A stretch of DNA of 63,424 bases from Gemmatimonadota bacterium (GTDB lineage Bacteria; Gemmatimonadota; Gemmatimonadetes; Longimicrobiales; Gaopeijiaceae), in the NCBI GenBank assembly GCA_015664885.1, contig DQPL01000010.1:1-63424 (forward strand), read 5' to 3'. Within the stretch, counting starts at the first letter, position 1. Each line of letters starts with the position of its first letter. A model generated the notes under the pieces. The model did no database searches, was not told the DNA's origin, and was given only the letters and a program-made list of their open reading frames with translations. The position numbers were made by a program, and so were the translations under genes. Below are positions 6,350-61,491 of this stretch, piece by piece.

Positions 6350-7426
6350 ATGAAGAAGCTTGCTACGACTCTGGTCGCATTGATGGCTGCTGCAGTGTCA
6401 GCAAGTGCCCAGTACGCTCCCCAGATTCCCACGGAGTCCGTACCGGACTTCTTCCGGCTTCCTAACGGAGTGAACTTCGGCGAGGTGCCGGCCGTGGCCG
6501 TCAACTCTCAGGGTCACATTTTCGTATACAGCCGCTCGAATCCCACAGGGGGCGGTCCTGCTTACGGCATTCACGCCGCCCAACTGTTCGAGTTCAGCCC
6601 ATCGGGCGACTTCATCCGTGAGCACGGCAGAGGGCTCTACGCCTGGGCGTTCGCGCACGGGCTCAGGATCGATGCCAACGACAACATCTGGACGGTGGAC
6701 AAGGGCTCGAACATGGTCGTGCGCATGAACCCCGAAGGCCGCGTCGTCTGGGTGTTCGGCCGCAAAGCGGAGTCGAGCTCCGAGGGCGCACGCCCGATCG
6801 AGCGTCAGAATCCTCCGCTGGCCCCACAAGACGGGCGATTTCGGGAGCCAACGGACCTGGCCTTCGACTCCCGCGGCAACATCTACATCAGCGACGGATA
6901 CATAAACTCGCGCGTCGCCAAATACGACATGAACGGCGACTGGGTGATGTCGTGGGGTGAGCCCGGCACAGGCCCCGGCCAGCTGCGCACACCGCACAGC
7001 ATCGCGATCGACCGGAACGACAACGTCTATGTCGGCGATCGCTCCAACGCTCGCATTCAGGTGTTTGACACAGACGGCAACTTCTTGCGCATGTTTAGCG
7101 TGGCCACACCGATCGCGCCGGGCTCCAAGGCCGTGAACGGCCGCACGCCGACCGACCTCAGCAACGTGGCCGGCAATGGCGCGCCCAACTCGCTCTGCAT
7201 TCCGCCGGGCAGCGACGTCATCTACGTGGGCGAGAGCACGTTCCCGGGGCGAATCATCAAAGCGACCCTCCAAGGCGAGGTGCTCGGAGTCGTCGGCAAC
7301 GCTGGGCGAATGCTTGGTGAGTTCTCAGGGGTGCATGGACTGGCCTGCCCCACGGAGGACCTGCTCTTTGCTGCGGAGACCTCGAACTCGCGCGTGCAGA
7401 AGCTGATTTTGAATCCGCGGCGTTAG
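6350..7426 (+). CDS. Secreted NHL propeller closely resembling peptidyl-hydroxyglycine amidating lyase (PAL)
   Basis: Protein of 358 aa with signal peptide (MKKLATTLVALMAAAVSASAQ); the ATG lies one base after the preceding stop. The NHL blades match the catalytic core of PAL: FVYSRSNP (Arg533 position), AHGLRIDANDNIW (zinc His585), EPTDLAF then SDGYINSRV (Tyr654), TPHSIAIDRNDNVYVGDR (His690 and Arg706), and GVHGLACP (third zinc His, 786). Residue numbers are those of rat PAL from memory. All key residues therefore appear present, unlike in the paralogues at 1925 and 60397. PAL splits peptidyl-alpha-hydroxyglycine into peptide amide and glyoxylate; the bacterial substrate is unknown. Confidence 0.8.
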   Translation: MKKLATTLVALMAAAVSASAQYAPQIPTESVPDFFRLPNGVNFGEVPAVAVNSQGHIFVYSRSNPTGGGPAYGIHAAQLFEFSPSGDFIREHGRGLYAWAFAHGLRIDANDNIWTVDKGSNMVVRMNPEGRVVWVFGRKAESSSEGARPIERQNPPLAPQDGRFREPTDLAFDSRGNIYISDGYINSRVAKYDMNGDWVMSWGEPGTGPGQLRTPHSIAIDRNDNVYVGDRSNARIQVFDTDGNFLRMFSVATPIAPGSKAVNGRTPTDLSNVAGNGAPNSLCIPPGSDVIYVGESTFPGRIIKATLQGEVLGVVGNAGRMLGEFSGVHGLACPTEDLLFAAETSNSRVQKLILNPRR

Positions 7427-50120: not shown

Positions 50121-51548
50121 CTACGCTGCCGGCCGCCCTGCCAGCCTGTGGAGTATCGTGTACCAATGCTCCAGGGCTCTATAGAACCCGCGTACTGGAA
50201 CGCGCTCATTCAGCCCATGCGCGAATTGGTCGCTGTCCTTGATGAACAATCCCATCACCCCGTACGTCGGGATGCCCCCAGCGCGGATTTCCTTTCCGTC
50301 CGTCCCGTAGGGTGCCATGTAGGGGATCACCGGAACGTCCGGGTATTGTGCATGGACCGCGGCGCTCACGGCTTCGAGCACATCGTCCCGAAGAGGTGAG
50401 GCGGGGCTAGCCATCGGCTCGGCCAGAACCTGGATCTCCAGTTGGGGCGTTGCAGCCACGCGCAGCAGTGTGGCGTAGACTGCCGCGACCTGCACGCCGG
50501 GAAAGATGCGACAGTTGACCGTCGCTGTTGCCGATTGCGGCAGCGCGTTCTCTGCGTGGCCTGCGCGTAGCATCGTCGCCACGCAGGTCGTGCGCGTTAT
50601 CCCCACGATTTCCGGTTCGTGCCAAAGCACGTCGGCCGCCTGCGCGTCGTCAGGATTGTCCGCGAGCCGAGCCATGGCGTCTCCCACCTCACCGGGCATG
50701 ACCTCGGCAGCGCCCTTCAGGTACAGGCGTGTAGCCTCGTTCACCATGACGGGGAAGCGATACGCTTCGATGTTCTTCAGCGCGGCGGCCAGATCGTAAA
50801 TCGCGTTGTCGGTCCGGGGCGTCGAGCTGTGCCCTCCGGGATTCGTGACCGTCAGCTCGAACGTGGCGTACGTCTTCTCGGAGGTCTGGATCACGTAGCT
50901 GACGGCCTCGCCGTCTTCGCCGAGCCGGCCACCACCACCGTCCGCGTTGAGCGCGAACTCGGCGTCCGTCAGCTCACGGTGCGTCGTCACCATGCGGCGC
51001 GCCGACATCATTCCCGTTTCCTCGTCTCCGGTAAACGCGATGACGAGGTCGCGCGTCGGGACGAAGCCTTCAGCTTTCAACCGCAGGAACGTGGTGGTCA
51101 GCATCGTAATGCCGAACTTGTCATCGAAGCTGCCTCGCCCGAAGAAGTATCCGTCCTCTTCGATGAGCGTGAAGGGATCCCGCTCCCAGTCCTGCGGAAG
51201 GGCATCGACTACGTCCATGTGGGCCAAGAGCAGAATCGGACGCTCTCCGGACGATCCGTCGCCACGGTAGCGCACGATGAGCCCGGCCGTTTCCTCTCCG
51301 CCAGGAACCTGAAACGGGAGGACCTGCACGTCCTCTTCCGGGAATCCGCCCGCTTGAAACCGATCTGCCAGATAGGCGGCGACTTCGGGCACCCGGCCAT
51401 GTGTTGCGGCAGACCGGTATCCGATGATGCTGCGATAGATATCCAGGGCTTCCAGCTGGTAGGGCTCGGTGTAGTCTGCGCTCGAGTTTTGGGCGGACAT
51501 GCCCGCAGGAAGCAGGAGCAAGCTGAGGGCGACTGGAAATCTGTGCAT
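50121..51548 (-). CDS. Secreted M20-family metallopeptidase
   Basis: Starting at MHRFPVALSLLLLPAGMSAQ (ATG at 51546-51548) the protein has 475 aa with a signal peptide; an upstream MTPRSLQ start at 51572 is also possible. M20 motifs: LLLAHMDVVDALPQDWERD (zinc His and Asp), GRGSFDDKFG, VIAFTGDEETGMMSARRM (catalytic Glu-Glu), EFALNADGGGGRLGEDG, and the dimerisation domain with NPGGHSSTPRTDNAIYDLAA. The final zinc His is in SDQFAHGLNERVPVRGFYR. This is the carboxypeptidase/aminoacylase-like group; peptides or N-acyl amino acids would be cleaved outside the cytoplasm. Confidence 0.92.
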   Translation of the reverse strand: MHRFPVALSLLLLPAGMSAQNSSADYTEPYQLEALDIYRSIIGYRSAATHGRVPEVAAYLADRFQAGGFPEEDVQVLPFQVPGGEETAGLIVRYRGDGSSGERPILLLAHMDVVDALPQDWERDPFTLIEEDGYFFGRGSFDDKFGITMLTTTFLRLKAEGFVPTRDLVIAFTGDEETGMMSARRMVTTHRELTDAEFALNADGGGGRLGEDGEAVSYVIQTSEKTYATFELTVTNPGGHSSTPRTDNAIYDLAAALKNIEAYRFPVMVNEATRLYLKGAAEVMPGEVGDAMARLADNPDDAQAADVLWHEPEIVGITRTTCVATMLRAGHAENALPQSATATVNCRIFPGVQVAAVYATLLRVAATPQLEIQVLAEPMASPASPLRDDVLEAVSAAVHAQYPDVPVIPYMAPYGTDGKEIRAGGIPTYGVMGLFIKDSDQFAHGLNERVPVRGFYRALEHWYTILHRLAGRPAA

Positions 51549-51726
51549 CGCTTGGAGGCTCCGTGGAGTCATTGTGGACCCAGCAAGGTACGGGGACCCG
51601 GTGCGATCGTCATGCTTGCCAGCCACCCGCGCGTATCGGACGTTGCCTCGCGCCCGACTCTCCGATCCGCGAAGTGCCACGGCCTGCAGTGAGCCCGTTT
51701 GCGCATCCCCAGCCGACCGCTATGGT

Positions 51727-52521
51727 ATGCCCGATATGGCCCGCTTAGCGCTCCCGCGCCTACTCCTGATCCTGAGCATCTCCGCGCCGCTCTCTGTGAG
51801 CGCGCAGGGCGGGAACCCGTATGAGGGCGACCGTACCGCGATGCGCGCCGGCGCGGCCCTGTTCGGCACCCGCTGCGCCGAATGTCACGGTGCGGACGCC
51901 AAGGGCATCAGCGGTCCCGATCTGACCCTCATGTGGGCGGCTGGCACGAGTGACGACCGGGTCTTCCAAGTGATCCAGCGGGGCATCTCGGGCAGCATCA
52001 TGCCCTCCAGCTCTGCGCCGGACCGCGAGATCTGGGCGATCGTCGCTCATGTGAAGGGCCTCAGCACGGTTTCGCCGTTCGAGAACGACACCGGGGATGC
52101 TGAACGCGGCCAGGAGGTCTTTTCCGGGACCTGCGTCCGCTGTCATACGGTGAACGGGCGCGGCGGGCATCTGGGCCCTGATCTGACACGCATCACCGTC
52201 GTCCGATCTCGCGACATGCTGATCCGGTCGATTCGCGACCCCAGTGCTTCGGTCGCGGCGGGCTACCGTACGGTGACATTCGTCACACAAGATGGTCAGC
52301 GCGTCCGTGGCGTGACCAAGAGCGAGGACGTGTTCTCGATTCAGGTCGTGGATACGCGCGAGCGGCTCCAGGGATATCTCAAGGCGGATCTGCAGGAACT
52401 CACGCGAGTAGATCGCTCGCTAATGCCGCAATTCGGCTCAGACCGTCTCAGCGACAGCGATCTCGACGACCTGCTGCGATATCTCGGTACGCTGCGAGAC
52501 GCTGACTCAAATGGCCGGTAG
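51727..52521 (+). CDS. Dihaem cytochrome c
   Basis: Starting at MPDMARLALPRLLLILSISA the protein has 264 aa with a signal peptide ending SVSAQ. Two haem-c motifs, CAECHGADAKG and CVRCHTVNGRGG, lie in two cytochrome c domains. The first axial Met could be in SGSIMPSS and the second in the later RSLMPQFGSD. The region between (RDMLIRSIRDPSASVAAGYR and VTFVTQDGQRVRGV) resembles the domain of quinoprotein-partner cytochromes. It stops 13 bp before the PQQ dehydrogenase start and probably takes its electrons. Confidence 0.88.
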   Translation: MPDMARLALPRLLLILSISAPLSVSAQGGNPYEGDRTAMRAGAALFGTRCAECHGADAKGISGPDLTLMWAAGTSDDRVFQVIQRGISGSIMPSSSAPDREIWAIVAHVKGLSTVSPFENDTGDAERGQEVFSGTCVRCHTVNGRGGHLGPDLTRITVVRSRDMLIRSIRDPSASVAAGYRTVTFVTQDGQRVRGVTKSEDVFSIQVVDTRERLQGYLKADLQELTRVDRSLMPQFGSDRLSDSDLDDLLRYLGTLRDADSNGR

Positions 52522-52534
52522 AGAGGTGCAATCA

Positions 52535-54193
52535 ATGCTGCTCGGAAGATTTGTCAGAGGACTGGCCAGAAGCCTGACATGCGCCGCTGCCATGATCGCG
52601 CTGACAGGCCTCGGCACTTCGAGTCTGGTCGCACAGGACGGCGACCCCGGCGTCACCTATGCCGACATTCTCCAAGGATTCTCCGACCCCTCGAGCTGGC
52701 TGACTTTCTCCGGCGATTACAGCGGCCGACGCCACAGCCCGCTCACCCAGGTCACGCCCGAAAACGTGCACCGCCTCACACCGATTTGGACCTTCCAAAC
52801 CGGTACGACGACCCGAGGCCGAGGCTTCGAGACCACCCCACTCGTATTGGACGGCGTGCTCTACGTCACCGGGTCGAACAACTTGGCGTGGGCGCTCGAC
52901 GCCCGGACCGGACGCCAGTTCTGGCAGTATCGGCGCAACCTGCCGAACGATCTCACCTATGGCGCGAGCGCGCCCGTCAATCGTGGGTTCGGTATGCTCG
53001 GCGAGAGCCTCTTCATGGTGACGCTCGATGCGCACCTCGTGTCGCTCGACAGAAAGACCGGGAGCGTGCTCTGGGATATCGAGCTCGCGGACTACCACGT
53101 CGGTTATGCCGCGACCATGGCGCCGCTGGTCATCGACGGAAAAGTGATTGTCGGGATCTCGGGCGGCGAGTATGCGACGCGCGGCTTCGTCGACGCGTAC
53201 GATCCGGAGACGGGCGAACGCATCTGGCGGTTCCACACGATCCCTGGGCCTGGCGAGCCCGGCAGTGAGACTTGGCCGCAGGACGCGGAAATCTTGGCCC
53301 GAGGCGGCGGTGGCACCTGGATGACTGGGAGCTACGATCCGGAGCTCGATCTCATCTATTGGGGCACCGGAAATCCGAATCCCGACTACTACGGCGACGA
53401 CCGGCTGGGGGACAACCTCTATACGAACTCGCTCGTGGCGCTCGACGCCCAAACGGGCACACTGCGTTGGCATTACCAGTTCACGCCGCACGACCTGCAC
53501 GACTGGGACTCCAACCATGTGCCTGTGCAGGCGGACATCATGTTTGGTGGCGAGCAGCGCAAGGTGGTCATGGTGGCCAACCGGAACGGGTTCTTCTATG
53601 TGCTCGACCGCACGACGGGTGAGCTTTTGCTCGGCAAGCCGTTCACGGAAACGACCTGGGCGCGCGAGATCGGGCCCGATGGGCGGCCCATAATCCTCAA
53701 CGACGGTAGTGAAGGGTGTCTGCCGGACCCCTGGGGCAGCACCAACTTCATGCCGCCGTCGTTCAATCCCGATCTCGGCCTCTTCTTCGTCACCGCGCGC
53801 GAGACCTGCGCCACCTTCGCGCCTCAGGAGCCCGAGTTCGTCGAGGGTCGCAGCTCGTTCGGCGGCGTCGTCTGGATCGACCGCGACCATTGGTACAGCG
53901 CTCTGCGCGCGATCGACGTACAGACCGGCGAGCGTAAGTGGGAGTTCCGCTACCCGTCCGCCACCATGGCGGGGGTGATGAGCACGGCGTCCGGGCTCGT
54001 CTTCGCGGGTGACCACGAGGGAAATTTCATGGCGTTCGAGGCCAGCACCGGCCAGAACCTGTGGCATTACCAGACCGGCTCCCGCATCTGGGGCGCCGCG
54101 GCGATGACCCACATGCTCGATGGACGGCAGCACGTGCTGATTCCTTCAGGGACGACGCTGGTGGCTTTTGCGCTTCCGGAGAGCCGGCCGTAG
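52535..54193 (+). CDS. PQQ-dependent alcohol dehydrogenase-type quinoprotein
   Basis: The start ATG 52535 lies behind GAGAGGTG; the longer frame with ATG 52511 overlaps the cytochrome gene. The protein has 552 aa with a signal peptide ending VAQDG. PQQ/metal features: GGEYATRGFVDAY (Glu ligand), YWGTGNPNPD (Asn), PHDLHDWDSNHV (catalytic Asp), plus ALDARTGRQFWQY-type docking motifs. The vicinal Cys pair expected before VNRG in alcohol dehydrogenases is replaced by GASAPVNRG. It oxidises an alcohol in the periplasm and should pass electrons to the cytochrome just upstream. Confidence 0.9.
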   Translation: MLLGRFVRGLARSLTCAAAMIALTGLGTSSLVAQDGDPGVTYADILQGFSDPSSWLTFSGDYSGRRHSPLTQVTPENVHRLTPIWTFQTGTTTRGRGFETTPLVLDGVLYVTGSNNLAWALDARTGRQFWQYRRNLPNDLTYGASAPVNRGFGMLGESLFMVTLDAHLVSLDRKTGSVLWDIELADYHVGYAATMAPLVIDGKVIVGISGGEYATRGFVDAYDPETGERIWRFHTIPGPGEPGSETWPQDAEILARGGGGTWMTGSYDPELDLIYWGTGNPNPDYYGDDRLGDNLYTNSLVALDAQTGTLRWHYQFTPHDLHDWDSNHVPVQADIMFGGEQRKVVMVANRNGFFYVLDRTTGELLLGKPFTETTWAREIGPDGRPIILNDGSEGCLPDPWGSTNFMPPSFNPDLGLFFVTARETCATFAPQEPEFVEGRSSFGGVVWIDRDHWYSALRAIDVQTGERKWEFRYPSATMAGVMSTASGLVFAGDHEGNFMAFEASTGQNLWHYQTGSRIWGAAAMTHMLDGRQHVLIPSGTTLVAFALPESRP

Positions 54194-54293: not shown

Positions 54294-55769
54294 ATGAATG
54301 CCAGACGGTTCGCTTTTTCGGTCTTAGCCCTTCTTGCGTTGCCGGTCGCGGTGAGCGCTCAATCGCACGATGCGAGTGTCGCTAACCACGAGCTGCATCT
54401 GTACGCTGCAGCCGACTTCGGCATCAATCCAGCCACGGTCACGTACTCGCGAGACATCGCGCCCATCCTCGAGCGCAGTTGCGTAAGCTGCCACCGCGCA
54501 GGTGGTGGCGCACCCATGTCGCTCAGGAGCTACGACGAAGTACGGCCAATGGCCCGGAGGATTCGGAACCGCACCGCCATCAGGGATCGCATGGGCGCGA
54601 TGCCCCCGTGGTTCGTGGAGAAGGACATCGGCATCCACTCCGCCTTCAAGGACGACTATTCGCTCAGCAGCGAAGAGCTGGCCAAGATTCAGGCATGGGC
54701 GGACAACGGAGCTCCTGAAGGCAACCGGGCGGACATGCCAGCGCCGCGGGATTTTGCCGATTCCGGAGCATGGACGATCGGAACGCCAGATCTCGTCCTG
54801 CGCTCGGTTGACAAGACGATGCCGCCCGTGGGACCCGATCGCTGGGGAGATATCGGCCTGGTGCCGACGGGACTGACCGAAGACCGTTACGTCATGGCCG
54901 TGGAGGTCCGCGAAGTCAACGACATCCCGGCGGAGAACGAGAGCAGCACCGTCGGTGGCCGCTACGTCTTCCACCACATGACCTATACGAGTGGCGTGCT
55001 GAGTGAGGACGGCACCGAGGTGGTCGGTCAAAGGACGAGCTGGCCCATCCACGAGGTCGGGCGCAATGCGGACGTGTTCCCGGACAAGGCTGGCAGGCTG
55101 CTGCGCGCGGGTTCGGCGCTACACCTCGGTGCGTCGCATCTGCACGCGAACGGCCGTGAGACGACCGGGCACCTCGAGTTCGGCTTCAAGTTCTTCCCGC
55201 CGGACTACGAGCCCGAGTACATGAACCGGGGCCCGCGTCTTGGCAACGGCGTCGACATCGACGTGGCGCCGAACAAAGCGAACCAGGAATTCCATTCCTA
55301 CCAGGTACTGCAGCAGCACACCAAGATCGTCGCATTCGAACCGCATCTACATGCACCGGGTGTACGGATGTGCATGGAGGCGATCTGGGGCCACAACCAG
55401 TTCACGCTCAGCTGCGTTGGCTACTCTCACAATTGGGTCAAGCAGTACGTCTTCGAGGACGACGCCGCGCCGTTGTTGCCCAAAGGCACGATCCTGCACG
55501 TCATCGGCTTCCTCGACACCACGGAAGCCAATCCGAACGTCGCGGACTCGAGAAACTGGGCTGGAGGCGGTCGGCGCTCGGTCTCCAACATGTTCATCGA
55601 CCTCGGCTACTCGGTCACGCTCACCGAAGAGCAGTTCCAGGCGGAAATGGCGGCTCGACGCGCGATGATGAAGGACAGGAACGACTACGACGTCGGGTGT
55701 CCGCTGTGTTGGGCTCCCGTCGTGACCGACATGGAGGAGGGACCGACGGGAGGAAGGGAGAACCAGTGA
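54294..55769 (+). CDS. Cytochrome c fused to PHM-like copper monooxygenase domain
   Basis: Protein of 491 aa with a signal peptide ending VSAQS and ribosome site AGGGGAG. CVSCH (63-67) is a haem-c motif in a cytochrome-like N-domain. The C-terminal 290 residues resemble copper type II ascorbate-dependent monooxygenases such as peptidylglycine hydroxylase (PHM). The motifs are FHHMTYTSG (His227-His228, like PHM His107-His108), ASHLHANGRETTGH (His282, 284), EPHLHAPGVRM (His351, 353; like PHM 242/244) and SNMFIDLG (Met433, like Met314). Electrons from the haem could replace ascorbate. Substrate unknown. Confidence 0.8.
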   Translation: MNARRFAFSVLALLALPVAVSAQSHDASVANHELHLYAAADFGINPATVTYSRDIAPILERSCVSCHRAGGGAPMSLRSYDEVRPMARRIRNRTAIRDRMGAMPPWFVEKDIGIHSAFKDDYSLSSEELAKIQAWADNGAPEGNRADMPAPRDFADSGAWTIGTPDLVLRSVDKTMPPVGPDRWGDIGLVPTGLTEDRYVMAVEVREVNDIPAENESSTVGGRYVFHHMTYTSGVLSEDGTEVVGQRTSWPIHEVGRNADVFPDKAGRLLRAGSALHLGASHLHANGRETTGHLEFGFKFFPPDYEPEYMNRGPRLGNGVDIDVAPNKANQEFHSYQVLQQHTKIVAFEPHLHAPGVRMCMEAIWGHNQFTLSCVGYSHNWVKQYVFEDDAAPLLPKGTILHVIGFLDTTEANPNVADSRNWAGGGRRSVSNMFIDLGYSVTLTEEQFQAEMAARRAMMKDRNDYDVGCPLCWAPVVTDMEEGPTGGRENQ

Positions 55770-56776
55770 TACGCGGCAGCGCTCTGTCGTCTACTGGCCG
55801 GGGGCTGTTGTTAGCACTGCTTTCGGTCCTTTTCCTGGTTCCGGCGGCTGAAGGTCAGACGCGGTTTATGCACCTGACCGACCAGACCGTGGCGCCTGCC
55901 TTCGAGGGCTGGTGGCCTAACGACGACGGGACGTACACGCTGTTCATGGGGTACATGAACTCCAATTGGGAGCAGGAATTCGATATCCCGGTTGGTCCGG
56001 ACAACTACTTTACGTTTACAGAGGCCGCGGGGCTGGACGATCTCGAGCGGGAGGCGTACGACGCTTCCTCCGCCGACCAGGGCCAGCCGACGCATTTCTA
56101 TCCGCGACGGAACCCCTTCCTGTTCACCATTCGCGTGCCCGGGGACTTCGGCTCCACGGAGCTGGTCTGGACGCTCAACACGCGAGGGATGACACTGCGC
56201 GCGTTTGCCTCGCTGGCACCGGACTACCGGATCGACCCGCAGGTGATCTCCACTGAAGTTGGGGGGAATTTCGGAAGCCTCAGCGACGCGCTCCGCACCA
56301 ACATTCCTCCTGAGCTCGAGATCCAGGGGGATGACCATGTCAGCATCGGAGTCGGTCAGGCGCTGACCGTGGTCGCGAAGGCTCACGACCCCGACAACCT
56401 CCCCGCCAGACGCAATCGAGGCGGACCGCCATCGACTCTGGCCCAACTGTACCGGCCTCCTTCGTCCATCGTAGTGCTCAGTGGACCGGGCATGCGGCTG
56501 TCGTGGATCGTGTACCGCGGTAATGCCGAACAAGTGACTTTTTCGCCAACGCAGATGAAGACGTGGACGGACTCGCGGGTGTGGGGCAACTCTCCGTGGT
56601 CGCCGCCCTGGATCATCCCCGAGCCGCCTGAGGATGGCAGGTGGGTCGCCGAAGCGACCTTCACGGAGCCGGGCAACTACGTGCTGCGCGCGGTCGCCAG
56701 CGACGGTTCGATGTTCACGTACAAGGACCTCATGGTCACGGTGACCCCGATCTCAGACTTGGACCAAGGGAAGTGA
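55766..56776 (+). CDS. Secreted protein of unknown function
   Basis: Protein of 336 aa from GTG 55766, which overlaps the upstream stop by 4 nt (GTGA). Signal peptide GLLLALLSVLFLVPAAEGQ. The sequence has a repeated Trp/Tyr-rich feature early (FEGWWPNDDGTYTLFMGYMN) and later beta-strand blocks, for example LTVVAKAHDPDNLPA, VVLSGPGMRLSWIVYRGNAE and YVLRAVASDGSMFTYKDLMV. The last part has the pattern of a cadherin/PKD-like beta-sandwich. It is embedded between the copper monooxygenase and the cupin gene and probably belongs to the same unit. No enzyme motif was found. Confidence 0.78.
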   Translation: MIRGSALSSTGRGLLLALLSVLFLVPAAEGQTRFMHLTDQTVAPAFEGWWPNDDGTYTLFMGYMNSNWEQEFDIPVGPDNYFTFTEAAGLDDLEREAYDASSADQGQPTHFYPRRNPFLFTIRVPGDFGSTELVWTLNTRGMTLRAFASLAPDYRIDPQVISTEVGGNFGSLSDALRTNIPPELEIQGDDHVSIGVGQALTVVAKAHDPDNLPARRNRGGPPSTLAQLYRPPSSIVVLSGPGMRLSWIVYRGNAEQVTFSPTQMKTWTDSRVWGNSPWSPPWIIPEPPEDGRWVAEATFTEPGNYVLRAVASDGSMFTYKDLMVTVTPISDLDQGK

Positions 56777-56777
56777 C

Positions 56778-57227
56778 ATGAAAGCATGGAACGGAAAGTC
56801 GATGCACATCGTGCTCGCGCTGGCGCTCATCGGGGTGGGAGTCTTCGGGTTCTCGTTGCTCACGAACCCTACTGAGTCGATGGCGCAGCAGCAGAGCCGT
56901 TTCATGGGTGGCAACCCGTCCGTGGTGGACAGTGAAGATGTGAACACGCTGCGTCTGCTCTTCCCGGCCGGCAGCCGCTCGAACTGGCACTCGCATTCCT
57001 GGGGCCAGCTCTTGATGGTGGAGGAAGGCGGAGGCCGGACGCAGGTGCGTGGGCAGTCGCTAGAGATCATGGAGCCGGGCCAGCCGTGGTGGACGGACGC
57101 GGGCGTCGAGCACTGGCACGGCGCCGGGCTCGATGAAGACGCGCTTCAAATGACGATTTACAGCGGCACCGTGGATTGGTTGGAGCCCGTGAGCGACGAC
57201 GTGTACCGGGCGGCTCCCGGCAGGTAG
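56778..57227 (+). CDS. Secreted cupin-domain protein
   Basis: Protein of 149 aa with an N-terminal hydrophobic segment (MHIVLALALIGVGVFGFSLL). It starts one base after the previous stop. Cupin motifs: first WHSHSWGQLLMVEEGGG (His-x-His with Gln), second WTDAGVEHWHGAG with a His. This is a single-domain cupin that may bind a metal. It completes the plus-strand run 51727-57227. Function unknown; perhaps quercetin-dioxygenase-like or a regulator of the neighbouring oxidase. The adjacent methyltransferase gene converges with a 1-bp gap. Confidence 0.85.
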   Translation: MKAWNGKSMHIVLALALIGVGVFGFSLLTNPTESMAQQQSRFMGGNPSVVDSEDVNTLRLLFPAGSRSNWHSHSWGQLLMVEEGGGRTQVRGQSLEIMEPGQPWWTDAGVEHWHGAGLDEDALQMTIYSGTVDWLEPVSDDVYRAAPGR

Positions 57228-58751: not shown

Positions 58752-60332
58752 ATGTCCACCAGACTTTCGAGTTTTGTCGTCGTAGCGACACTGATCGGCG
58801 TTCCGTCCGCCGCTCAGGAGCTGCCACCGGGCTACCTCGACCCTGCTCCAGTATTGCAGGCTGCCGCCGAGGCGATCGGCGTCGCCAACCTTCGCTGCGT
58901 GACGATCTCGGGCAGTGCCTATGCGGGCATGGTGGGCCAGCAGCGGCTGAACGGCTACGAAGTGGATTGGCCGCGCGGCGAACGGCTGACCAATTTCCGC
59001 CGCACGATGAACTGGGAGGCCGGCACGTCGGTGGAAGCGTTCGATCGTGAACCTGGCCTCAATCCAGCGTCGTGGAAGTGGGGGCTCGGGTGGCGAGGCG
59101 GAACACCGCTGCAGCGCAACAGTCGCCAACTCTTCGCGGTAAACGGCACGCATGCATGGCACGTGGACGGGCAGGGTAGCGCGCCCGTGGCGGCGCCGCC
59201 CGAGGACGCCGAACGCTGGCAGCTCGACATGTGGCTCAATCCGCACGGCTTCCTCAAGGCGGCCATGATGCCGGGTGCCGACCCGCGCGCCACCTGGCGC
59301 TGGGAGCTCGGCGAGATGGGTCGGGACGGCGCGACGGTATCGCCCGAAAAAGTGACGATCGTGTCGATCACCGTGCTGGGGAAGTACAGGGTGGACGCCA
59401 CCATCAACAGTGAGAATCTGCTGCAGCGCATCCACACCTGGGTGCCCGATCCCGTGCTTGGAGACATGAACTACGAGCATGAATTCACCAACGCGAGCTA
59501 TGTGGATCTAGGCGACGGCATTCGTTTTCCCGCCGGCTGGCATCACCATCAGGGCTGGGACGACAACTACCAGGCGCAGAGCGTCAACGCCGGCCACAAT
59601 GCGTTCGGCGGAACGCTTGCGGACATCCGAGCCAACGACTGCGACGACCCCGTCACGGTTCCCGACGCGGTTCTGCGGGCCGACTTCCCGGTCGAGGTCA
59701 CGACGCTCGAGGTAGCCGACGGCGTGTGGCTGCTCGGCGGGTCGTCTCACAACAGCGTGGCCATCGAGTTCGACGACTACATCACGGTCGTGGAGGCCCC
59801 TCTCGACGAGCGGCGTAGCCTCGCGGTCATCGATGAGATCGTTCGGCTCGTGCCTGACAAGCCGATCCGCTTCCTCATCAACACGCACCAGCACCACGAT
59901 CACATCGGCGGGCTGCGCACGTATATGCATGTCGGCGCCACCATCGTCACGCATTGGAAGAACTACGAGTTCTACACACGCGACGTGCTCAATTACGCGC
60001 CCCGTACGCTGGCCCCGGACATGCTGGCGCTATGGCCGCCGACGGAGCTCGCTGAGGGCTACCAGTACGAGACGGTGCGTGAGAACTACTGGCTGAGCGG
60101 AGGGGAGCGTTCGATGCACGTCTCCTATGTACACCCGCTGCCCCATGTCGAGGGGATGCTGGTCGCCTATCTGCCGAACGAGAAGATCCTGATCGAGGCT
60201 GACCTTTCGGATAGCCGGACCCTATTGGGCCACGTGCAACGACTCGGGCTGGACGTCGAGACGATCGTGCCGATCCACGGGCTACCCGTTGCGTGGTCGG
60301 ACTTCGTGGAACAGCTCGATTCCGGACGATAG
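58752..60332 (+). CDS. Secreted metallo-beta-lactamase-fold hydrolase with long N-terminal domain
   Basis: Starting at MSTRLSSFVVVATLIGVPSA (GGGAGG about 10 nt upstream) the protein has 526 aa. The first 290 residues are an uncharacterised domain with FAVNGTHAWHVDGQG and DMWLNPHGFLKAAM. The metallo-hydrolase domain follows (residues about 310-520): VWLLGGSSHNSVAIEFDDYI, FLINTHQHHDHIGGLRTYMH (HxHxDH) and the later IVPIHGLPVAWSDF. The composite arrangement is seen in other exported metallo-hydrolases of this kind. Substrate unknown. It is followed 65 bp later by the NHL gene at 60397. Confidence 0.85.
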   Translation: MSTRLSSFVVVATLIGVPSAAQELPPGYLDPAPVLQAAAEAIGVANLRCVTISGSAYAGMVGQQRLNGYEVDWPRGERLTNFRRTMNWEAGTSVEAFDREPGLNPASWKWGLGWRGGTPLQRNSRQLFAVNGTHAWHVDGQGSAPVAAPPEDAERWQLDMWLNPHGFLKAAMMPGADPRATWRWELGEMGRDGATVSPEKVTIVSITVLGKYRVDATINSENLLQRIHTWVPDPVLGDMNYEHEFTNASYVDLGDGIRFPAGWHHHQGWDDNYQAQSVNAGHNAFGGTLADIRANDCDDPVTVPDAVLRADFPVEVTTLEVADGVWLLGGSSHNSVAIEFDDYITVVEAPLDERRSLAVIDEIVRLVPDKPIRFLINTHQHHDHIGGLRTYMHVGATIVTHWKNYEFYTRDVLNYAPRTLAPDMLALWPPTELAEGYQYETVRENYWLSGGERSMHVSYVHPLPHVEGMLVAYLPNEKILIEADLSDSRTLLGHVQRLGLDVETIVPIHGLPVAWSDFVEQLDSGR

Positions 60333-60396
60333 CTTAACCGGAGACCGGGAAGTCGAGGCGTCGGGCCCACGAACTGCCAAATGGGAGAGCAACACA

Positions 60397-61491
60397 ATGC
60401 AGCATGCCCAGCGAACAAGCGTGAGCACCCTTGTCGGTTTGGTGTTGTTGGGTGTCGCTTGGGGCGGGACATTGACCGCCCAGACGTCCACGACCAACCC
60501 GTACCGCGCCACCTTTGGCTGGGAGAAGCTGCCCGAAGGAAGAAGCCTTGGGGTCATCAGCGGGGTCATCCCCGACCCCGACGGAGTGCACCTGTGGATT
60601 CTGGACCGGTGCGGCGGCAATGGGTGCGCCGGCACCGACCTGGACCCGATCCTGAAGTTCGACCTCGACGGCAACCTGGTGGACAGCTTCGGGGCCGGCA
60701 TGTTTGCCTTTCCGCACGGCTTCGCTCTGGACCGCGATGGCTTTCTGTGGGTCACCGAAGGCGGCTCGCACGGCGACGCTCGAGCCACGCTGGGTGAGAG
60801 CATGGGCATCGGGCATCAGGTCCTGAAGCTCACCAAGCAGGGAGAGGTGGTGATGCGGTTGGGTGAAGCCGCAGTCTGGGGGGACGACGAAAATCACTTC
60901 AATGGCCCGTCGGGCGTCGCGATCGCTGCCAACGGTGACATCTGGGTCTCGGATGGGCACAGGGGTGGGAACAACCGCATCGTCAAGTTCACTCGCGACG
61001 GGATGTTCGTGCTCGCGGTGGGGGGCGGTGTCGGATCGGAGAGCCGGGAGCCGAGTCGGTTCAGTGACGCCCACGACATCAAGATCGATTCCCAGGACCG
61101 CGTTCTGGTCGCTGATCGCGGCAACAGCCGCATCCAGGTCTTCGATCAGGACGGCGAGCTGCTCTATATCTGGACGCACTACGGCAAGCCGAGCGGGCTC
61201 TTCATCGATCGCAACGACATTCTTTATGCGGGCGATGGCCTCTCGGGCCAGCTACGGACCGGGCCGCCCGACCCGTGGCGCAGCAACTTCGGCTGGGAGA
61301 AGGGCATCCGGATCGGGGACTTGAAGACCGAACAGGCGTGGGTCACACACTTCATTCCCCAACACGACGTGGACGTCGGCGCCGGTATCGAGTTCCTCGG
61401 TGTGGACTTCGACGGAAACATCTACGCGGGTGAGGTCACGCGCGCGCGGCTGGTGAGGTACGTGCCCTTCAGGCCGCCGGAGATCCGGTGA
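60397..61491 (+). CDS. Secreted NHL-repeat propeller, PAL-like family (paralogue of 1925-2947)
   Basis: Starting at MQHAQRTSVSTLVGLVLLGV (GGGAGAG upstream) the protein has 364 aa with a signal peptide. NHL blades: FAFPHGFALDRDGFLWVTE (PAL first zinc His), GPSGVAIAANGDIWVSDG, DAHDIKIDSQDRVLVADR (second His and Arg) and SNFGWEKGIRIG. The catalytic Tyr position reads SDGHRGGNNRIV (His). The protein shares NPYRATFG..., ILDRCG and FGAGMF with the gene at 1925. The third zinc His seems absent here too. Likely a periplasmic binding or lyase-like propeller; activity uncertain. Confidence 0.85.
   Translation: MQHAQRTSVSTLVGLVLLGVAWGGTLTAQTSTTNPYRATFGWEKLPEGRSLGVISGVIPDPDGVHLWILDRCGGNGCAGTDLDPILKFDLDGNLVDSFGAGMFAFPHGFALDRDGFLWVTEGGSHGDARATLGESMGIGHQVLKLTKQGEVVMRLGEAAVWGDDENHFNGPSGVAIAANGDIWVSDGHRGGNNRIVKFTRDGMFVLAVGGGVGSESREPSRFSDAHDIKIDSQDRVLVADRGNSRIQVFDQDGELLYIWTHYGKPSGLFIDRNDILYAGDGLSGQLRTGPPDPWRSNFGWEKGIRIGDLKTEQAWVTHFIPQHDVDVGAGIEFLGVDFDGNIYAGEVTRARLVRYVPFRPPEIR

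Follow-up and report, generated by a model that had tools for sequence, protein, structure and literature searches.

A bacterial protein family joining a cytochrome c domain to a PHM/DBH-like, putative copper-binding core

In animals, peptidylglycine alpha-hydroxylating monooxygenase (PHM) serves the amidation of peptide hormones and dopamine beta-hydroxylase (DBH) makes noradrenaline. Both have been described mainly from eukaryotes and depend on ascorbate, and PNGase F is a distant relative of both in fold. In PHM, the CuM ligands are H242, H244, and M314, and the residues that anchor the carboxylate of the peptide substrate are R240, N316, and Y318. The CuH ligands of PHM are H107, H108, and H172 (PMC6123673), and the copper ligands of DBH are H262, H263, H333, H412, H414, and M487 (PMC4846438). 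A search of the open-access literature returned papers on ascorbate-dependent eukaryotic PHM and DBH enzymes and none on a fusion of such an enzyme with a cytochrome. Other sequence databases may already contain annotated proteins that combine a cytochrome with a PHM-type copper domain.

The window, which is the whole stretch of 63,424 nucleotides analysed from a Gemmatimonadota contig, contains an open reading frame with an ATG start at 54294-55769. It encodes a 491-residue protein in which a cytochrome c domain precedes a PHM/DBH-like core, and it lies on the + strand, as do the genes of its cassette described below. Residues 1-22 (54294-54359), ending in VAVSAQ, were recognized by eye in the translation as a Sec-type signal peptide, and the AlphaFold model has a helix at residues 3-21. 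A mono-haem cytochrome c domain follows at about residues 46-145 (54429-54728). It carries the haem c attachment motif CVSCH, with C63, C66, and H67 (residues 63-67; 54480-54494), and M103 in the stretch GAMPPW (54600-54602), the likely distal haem ligand. The two-domain copper core, identified with Foldseek, VIA-align, and a profile of the core, occupies residues 163-448 (54780-55637). Within it, the putative CuH ligands are H227-H228 (54972-54977), equivalent to PHM H107-H108 and DBH H262-H263, and H282 (55137-55139), equivalent to PHM H172 and DBH H333. The putative CuM ligands are H351-x-H353 (55344-55352), equivalent to PHM H242/H244 and DBH H412/H414, and M433 (55590-55592), equivalent to PHM M314 and DBH M487. 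The histidines were aligned to those of DBH, and M433 was matched by position only.

A scan of genome contigs recovered 67 orthologous loci, sharing 51-77% identity and spanning the Acidobacteriota, Gammaproteobacteria, and Gemmatimonadota. In addition, the genome to which the window belongs (3.96 Mb, 99% complete) encodes 16 full-length cytochrome c-PHM members, that is, the window gene and 15 paralogues (L077-L091). Conservation was counted in two alignments, one of 44 orthologues and one of the 16 members from this genome, whose identity falls to 25%. C63, C66, H67, M103, H227, H228, H282, H351, H353, and M433 are invariant in both. Thus, the CxxCH motif and downstream Met of a class I-type cytochrome c, the His-His pair and third His of a CuH site, and the His-x-His and Met of a CuM site are all retained. 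Five other histidines (H253, H284, H334, H379, and H402) are invariant among the orthologues and variable among the paralogues, so that the only invariant histidines of the paralogue alignment are those of the haem and the copper ligands. This selective retention is as expected of a conserved dicopper site. The original prediction had matched FHHM (residues 226-229), two HxH motifs (HLH at 282-284 and at 351-353), and a Met to the copper ligands of PHM. The His pair of FHHM, the two His of the second HxH, and the Met stand as invariant features, and the first HxH contributes H282 alone, H284 being one of the histidines that vary. Four cysteines, at residues 360, 374, 469, and 472, are invariant in the orthologue group only. 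The C360/C374 pair perhaps forms a disulfide, and a second motif, CPLC, which has no following His, perhaps provides another disulfide or a metal site.

The AlphaFold model of the fusion protein, built from a 44-row alignment, is predicted with only moderate confidence (pLDDT 77, pTM 0.77), and the loop at residues 418-431 that adjoins M433 has a pLDDT under 50. Its core nevertheless adopts a two-domain jelly-roll of the PHM/DBH type. The best 30 Foldseek matches were all PHM or DBH, with E values from 3e-7 to 4e-4, PHM itself at E 3e-7 and a probability of 1.00. In VIA-align comparisons, the model matched PHM (6ala) with a Z of 15.1 over 243 residues at an rmsd of 3.4 and DBH (4zel) with a Z of 15.0, the PHM and DBH matches covering 243-256 residues at an rmsd of 3.4-3.6. 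The best unrelated fold, that of the PNGases, reached a Z of 7.5.

Sequence evidence independent of this model came from a profile of 13 paralogue cores. It ranked human DBH first among 177,635 PDB sequences at E 3.7e-5, and five of the six copper ligands fell in register. A profile of the full-length paralogues gave a weaker match to DBH (E 0.005). Only these paralogue-wide profiles succeeded; searches of the PDB with the single sequence and with the orthologue profile returned no PHM or DBH match. Because the haem motif and copper ligands are invariant, the model matches PHM and DBH, and the core profile finds DBH, the fusion of a haem c domain to a PHM-fold enzyme with putative copper binding is well supported, as the original prediction had held.

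The sole Pfam match of the fusion protein is to Cytochrome_CBB3, below the curated cut-off (E 2.5e-4 over residues 56-106), and the Cu2_monoox models do not match it; the PHM part therefore escapes routine annotation. NCBIfam returned nothing useful for the fusion protein and gave a copper-enzyme name to none of the 16 members of this genome. Among the paralogues, L077 scores above the Pfam cut-off for Cu2_monoox_C (PF03712), and six of the 13 paralogue cores match that model weakly. Another paralogue, L085 (L085:2430-4274), has an additional C-terminal domain of about 110 residues beyond the copper core. The cytochrome fusion was found across all of the relatives recovered, and a plasmid search found no homologue. 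The family libraries searched have missed this bacterial cytochrome c-PHM family.

Immediately downstream, a protein predicted to be secreted and to have two Ig-like beta-sandwich domains is encoded at 55766-56776 (AlphaFold pLDDT 87). Its GTG start overlaps the stop codon of the fusion gene (GTGA), and the sequence predicts that the two genes are translationally coupled. This companion is present at 62 of the 67 loci, invariably downstream and on the same strand, and just two of the five loci that lack it extend for more than 1.2 kb downstream. Most of the 16 members in the genome also come with their own copy. Of 62 companion copies in related genomes, 54 lie no more than 1.5 kb from a PHM-like gene. 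Among 39 such genomes, the 10 that encode the companion are precisely the 10 with a strong PHM-like match (Fisher P 1.6e-9), where "strong" means an E below 1e-140, a cut-off picked after the list had been seen. Tests for a DOMON or haem protein gave no support for either identity: the companion matches no known family and has no significant sequence homologue in the PDB. Its C-terminal half (residues 175-332), on which the structural comparison chiefly bore, gives only generic Ig-like matches, with a Z of about 8.

Upstream of the fusion gene are a dihaem cytochrome c (51499-52521), with two Cytochrome_CBB3 stretches (E 1e-22) and a true start probably at 51727 or 51736, and a PQQ-type alcohol dehydrogenase, or quinoprotein (52511-54193; TIGR03075, 512.6 bits against a cut-off of 480). 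A cupin at 56778-57227 (Cupin_2, E 3e-8) ends the cassette. The dihaem cytochrome occurs at 33 and the cupin at 34 of the 67 loci. Quinoproteins sharing 60% identity or more were found for 34 of the 67 loci, within 4 kb in 32 cases, and accompany 25 of the 29 gammaproteobacterial loci. The quinoprotein is absent from 13 acidobacterial loci with room for it and is therefore not an obligatory partner. The combination of quinoprotein, dihaem cytochrome c, and companion is common to Gammaproteobacteria and Gemmatimonadota. The quinoproteins share 72-81% identity, a level high enough between phyla to suggest that the cassette has spread horizontally. The quinoprotein of the window contains the motif HDWDSN, a DxD arrangement like that reported for the lanthanide-dependent XoxF-type dehydrogenases, and it scores below the cut-off of the acido-empty-quinoprotein model. 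The cupin resembles the (R)-mandelonitrile lyase model NF049940 (E 4e-23), also below its cut-off. A search for pqqC returned no match, and neither did its control searches.

The fusion protein is probably a dicopper monooxygenase of the PHM/DBH fold that is secreted to the periplasm and carries a cytochrome c domain of its own, and it appears to oxidize a substrate other than those of PHM and DBH. In the mechanism proposed, CuM would bind O2 and hydroxylate a C-H bond in some small organic or extracellular compound, and the fused haem c, in place of ascorbate, would pass the two electrons to CuH. The companion might bind the substrate or the enzyme. In complete cassettes, the alcohol product would be oxidized by the adjoining PQQ alcohol dehydrogenase, and its dihaem cytochrome c would join the same periplasmic electron chain. 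The replacement of ascorbate by haem as the electron donor is plausible and is the simplest reading, since a covalent cytochrome is invariant on a class of enzyme that consumes two electrons in each turnover. Only the order of the genes suggests coupling to the quinoprotein. More speculatively, and with considerable doubt, these proteins may be a widespread family of cytochrome-fed PHM-fold oxygenases that make up a periplasmic module for hydroxylation and oxidation, in which oxidation of the alcohol by the quinoprotein returns electrons through c-type cytochromes to the oxygenase, making ascorbate dispensable.

Two other readings keep the fold and the copper sites. The protein could be a copper redox enzyme that is not a monooxygenase, such as an oxidase, a peroxygenase, or an electron-transfer protein feeding the quinoprotein chain. 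The cytochrome-rich cassette would be a fitting setting for such a protein, but the full asymmetric set of CuH and CuM ligands, which characterized relatives use for C-H hydroxylation, has been kept, and this reading is unlikely. It is also rather improbable, slightly more so, that the protein is a monooxygenase running on a soluble reductant such as ascorbate, with the haem c serving storage, sensing, or folding. Use of ascorbate is the rule in the PHM/DBH family (PMC6123673; PMC4846438), but the haem motif and M103 vary in neither alignment, and all of the relatives found carry the fusion. If electron delivery by the fused haem is correct, a large bacterial branch with covalent haem c would show how PHM/DBH-type enzymes can run on a donor other than ascorbate. 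Such a branch would also offer a tractable system for testing how electrons enter the CuH/CuM pair, whose sites are distant, and would indicate that Acidobacteriota, Gemmatimonadota, and Gammaproteobacteria have an unrecognised periplasmic route for oxidizing C-H bonds.

Peptide amidation was the function first raised for this locus, the window having been thought to hold both halves of that chemistry. Under this proposal, glycine-extended peptides would be the substrate of the fusion protein, acting as a PHM, and the product would be cleaved by a PAL-like propeller encoded in the genome. Beyond the PHM-type fold and copper ligands, the proposal draws on three PAL-like open reading frames in the window. 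These do exist as NHL propellers that match rat PAL (3fvz), at 1817-2947 (E 3e-26), 6350-7426 (E 3e-21), and 60289-61491 (E 3e-20), but the NHL propellers of TRIM and Thin match them equally well or better. The catalytic set of PAL consists of a zinc-binding His triad with a catalytic Tyr and Arg. With these residues as the guide, reading of the sequences indicates that the protein at 6350-7426 retains matches to the His, Tyr, His, Arg, His set, which makes it the best candidate in the window for a true PAL-like lyase. Its stretches at the PAL-type positions are AHGLRID, SDGYINSR, TPHSIAID, GDRSNARI, and GVHGLACP, and it has no linkage to the fusion gene. The proteins at 1817 and 60289, the latter being the PAL-like protein nearest to the fusion gene, lack matches to the Tyr and to the third His of the zinc triad.

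Genetic linkage to a PAL partner, as in PAM systems, is not supported: just 15 of the 67 orthologues have NHL/PAL-like genes nearby, at varied positions. The genome has 21 NHL propeller matches, and five of the 16 PHM paralogues have an NHL gene no more than 8 kb away when 1.5 would be expected (P 0.013), a slight excess that could be explained by general clustering of catabolic genes. Across 39 genomes, the counts of NHL and PHM-like genes correlate with a rho of 0.73, where a beta-lactamase-family control gives 0.32, but within the family the correlation is no more specific than that of the control (rho 0.56 vs 0.52), and NHL genes are present in 13 of the 29 related genomes without a strong full-length PHM-like gene. 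E349, I435, and L437 of the fusion protein occupy the positions of the PHM anchors R240, N316, and Y318, and E, I, and L are found there in 41-43 of the 44 orthologues. Given the weak linkage, the control-level correlation, the replaced anchors, and the lack of catalytic-type residues in the nearest PAL-like protein, peptide amidation is unsupported and very unlikely, and the fusion protein is probably not a peptidylglycine hydroxylase.

Among described systems, the closest comparisons are with PHM and DBH. Like PHM (1phm/6ala), the fusion protein has a two-domain jelly-roll, a three-His CuH site, and a His-x-His plus Met CuM site. In contrast, it shares only about 10-12% identity with PHM, is bacterial, carries an N-terminal cytochrome c, has other residues in place of the peptide-carboxylate anchors, and lacks a linked PAL. 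With DBH (4zel), it shares the fold (Z 15.0), sequence homology (E 3.7e-5), and the ligand pattern. However, the N-terminus of DBH is an Ig-like DOMON domain, while that of the fusion protein is a cytochrome c, and two Ig domains reside here on a separate protein, the gene-coupled companion. The copper type II ascorbate-dependent monooxygenases of PF03712 (Cu2_monoox_C) include a paralogue from the same genome above the cut-off, although the window fusion protein itself is unmatched. In methanotrophs, the pMMO and methanol dehydrogenase system places a copper oxygenase beside a PQQ alcohol dehydrogenase and cytochromes. The fusion cassette is alike in arrangement, by analogy only, while its copper enzyme is unrelated to pMMO, soluble, and fused to its haem.
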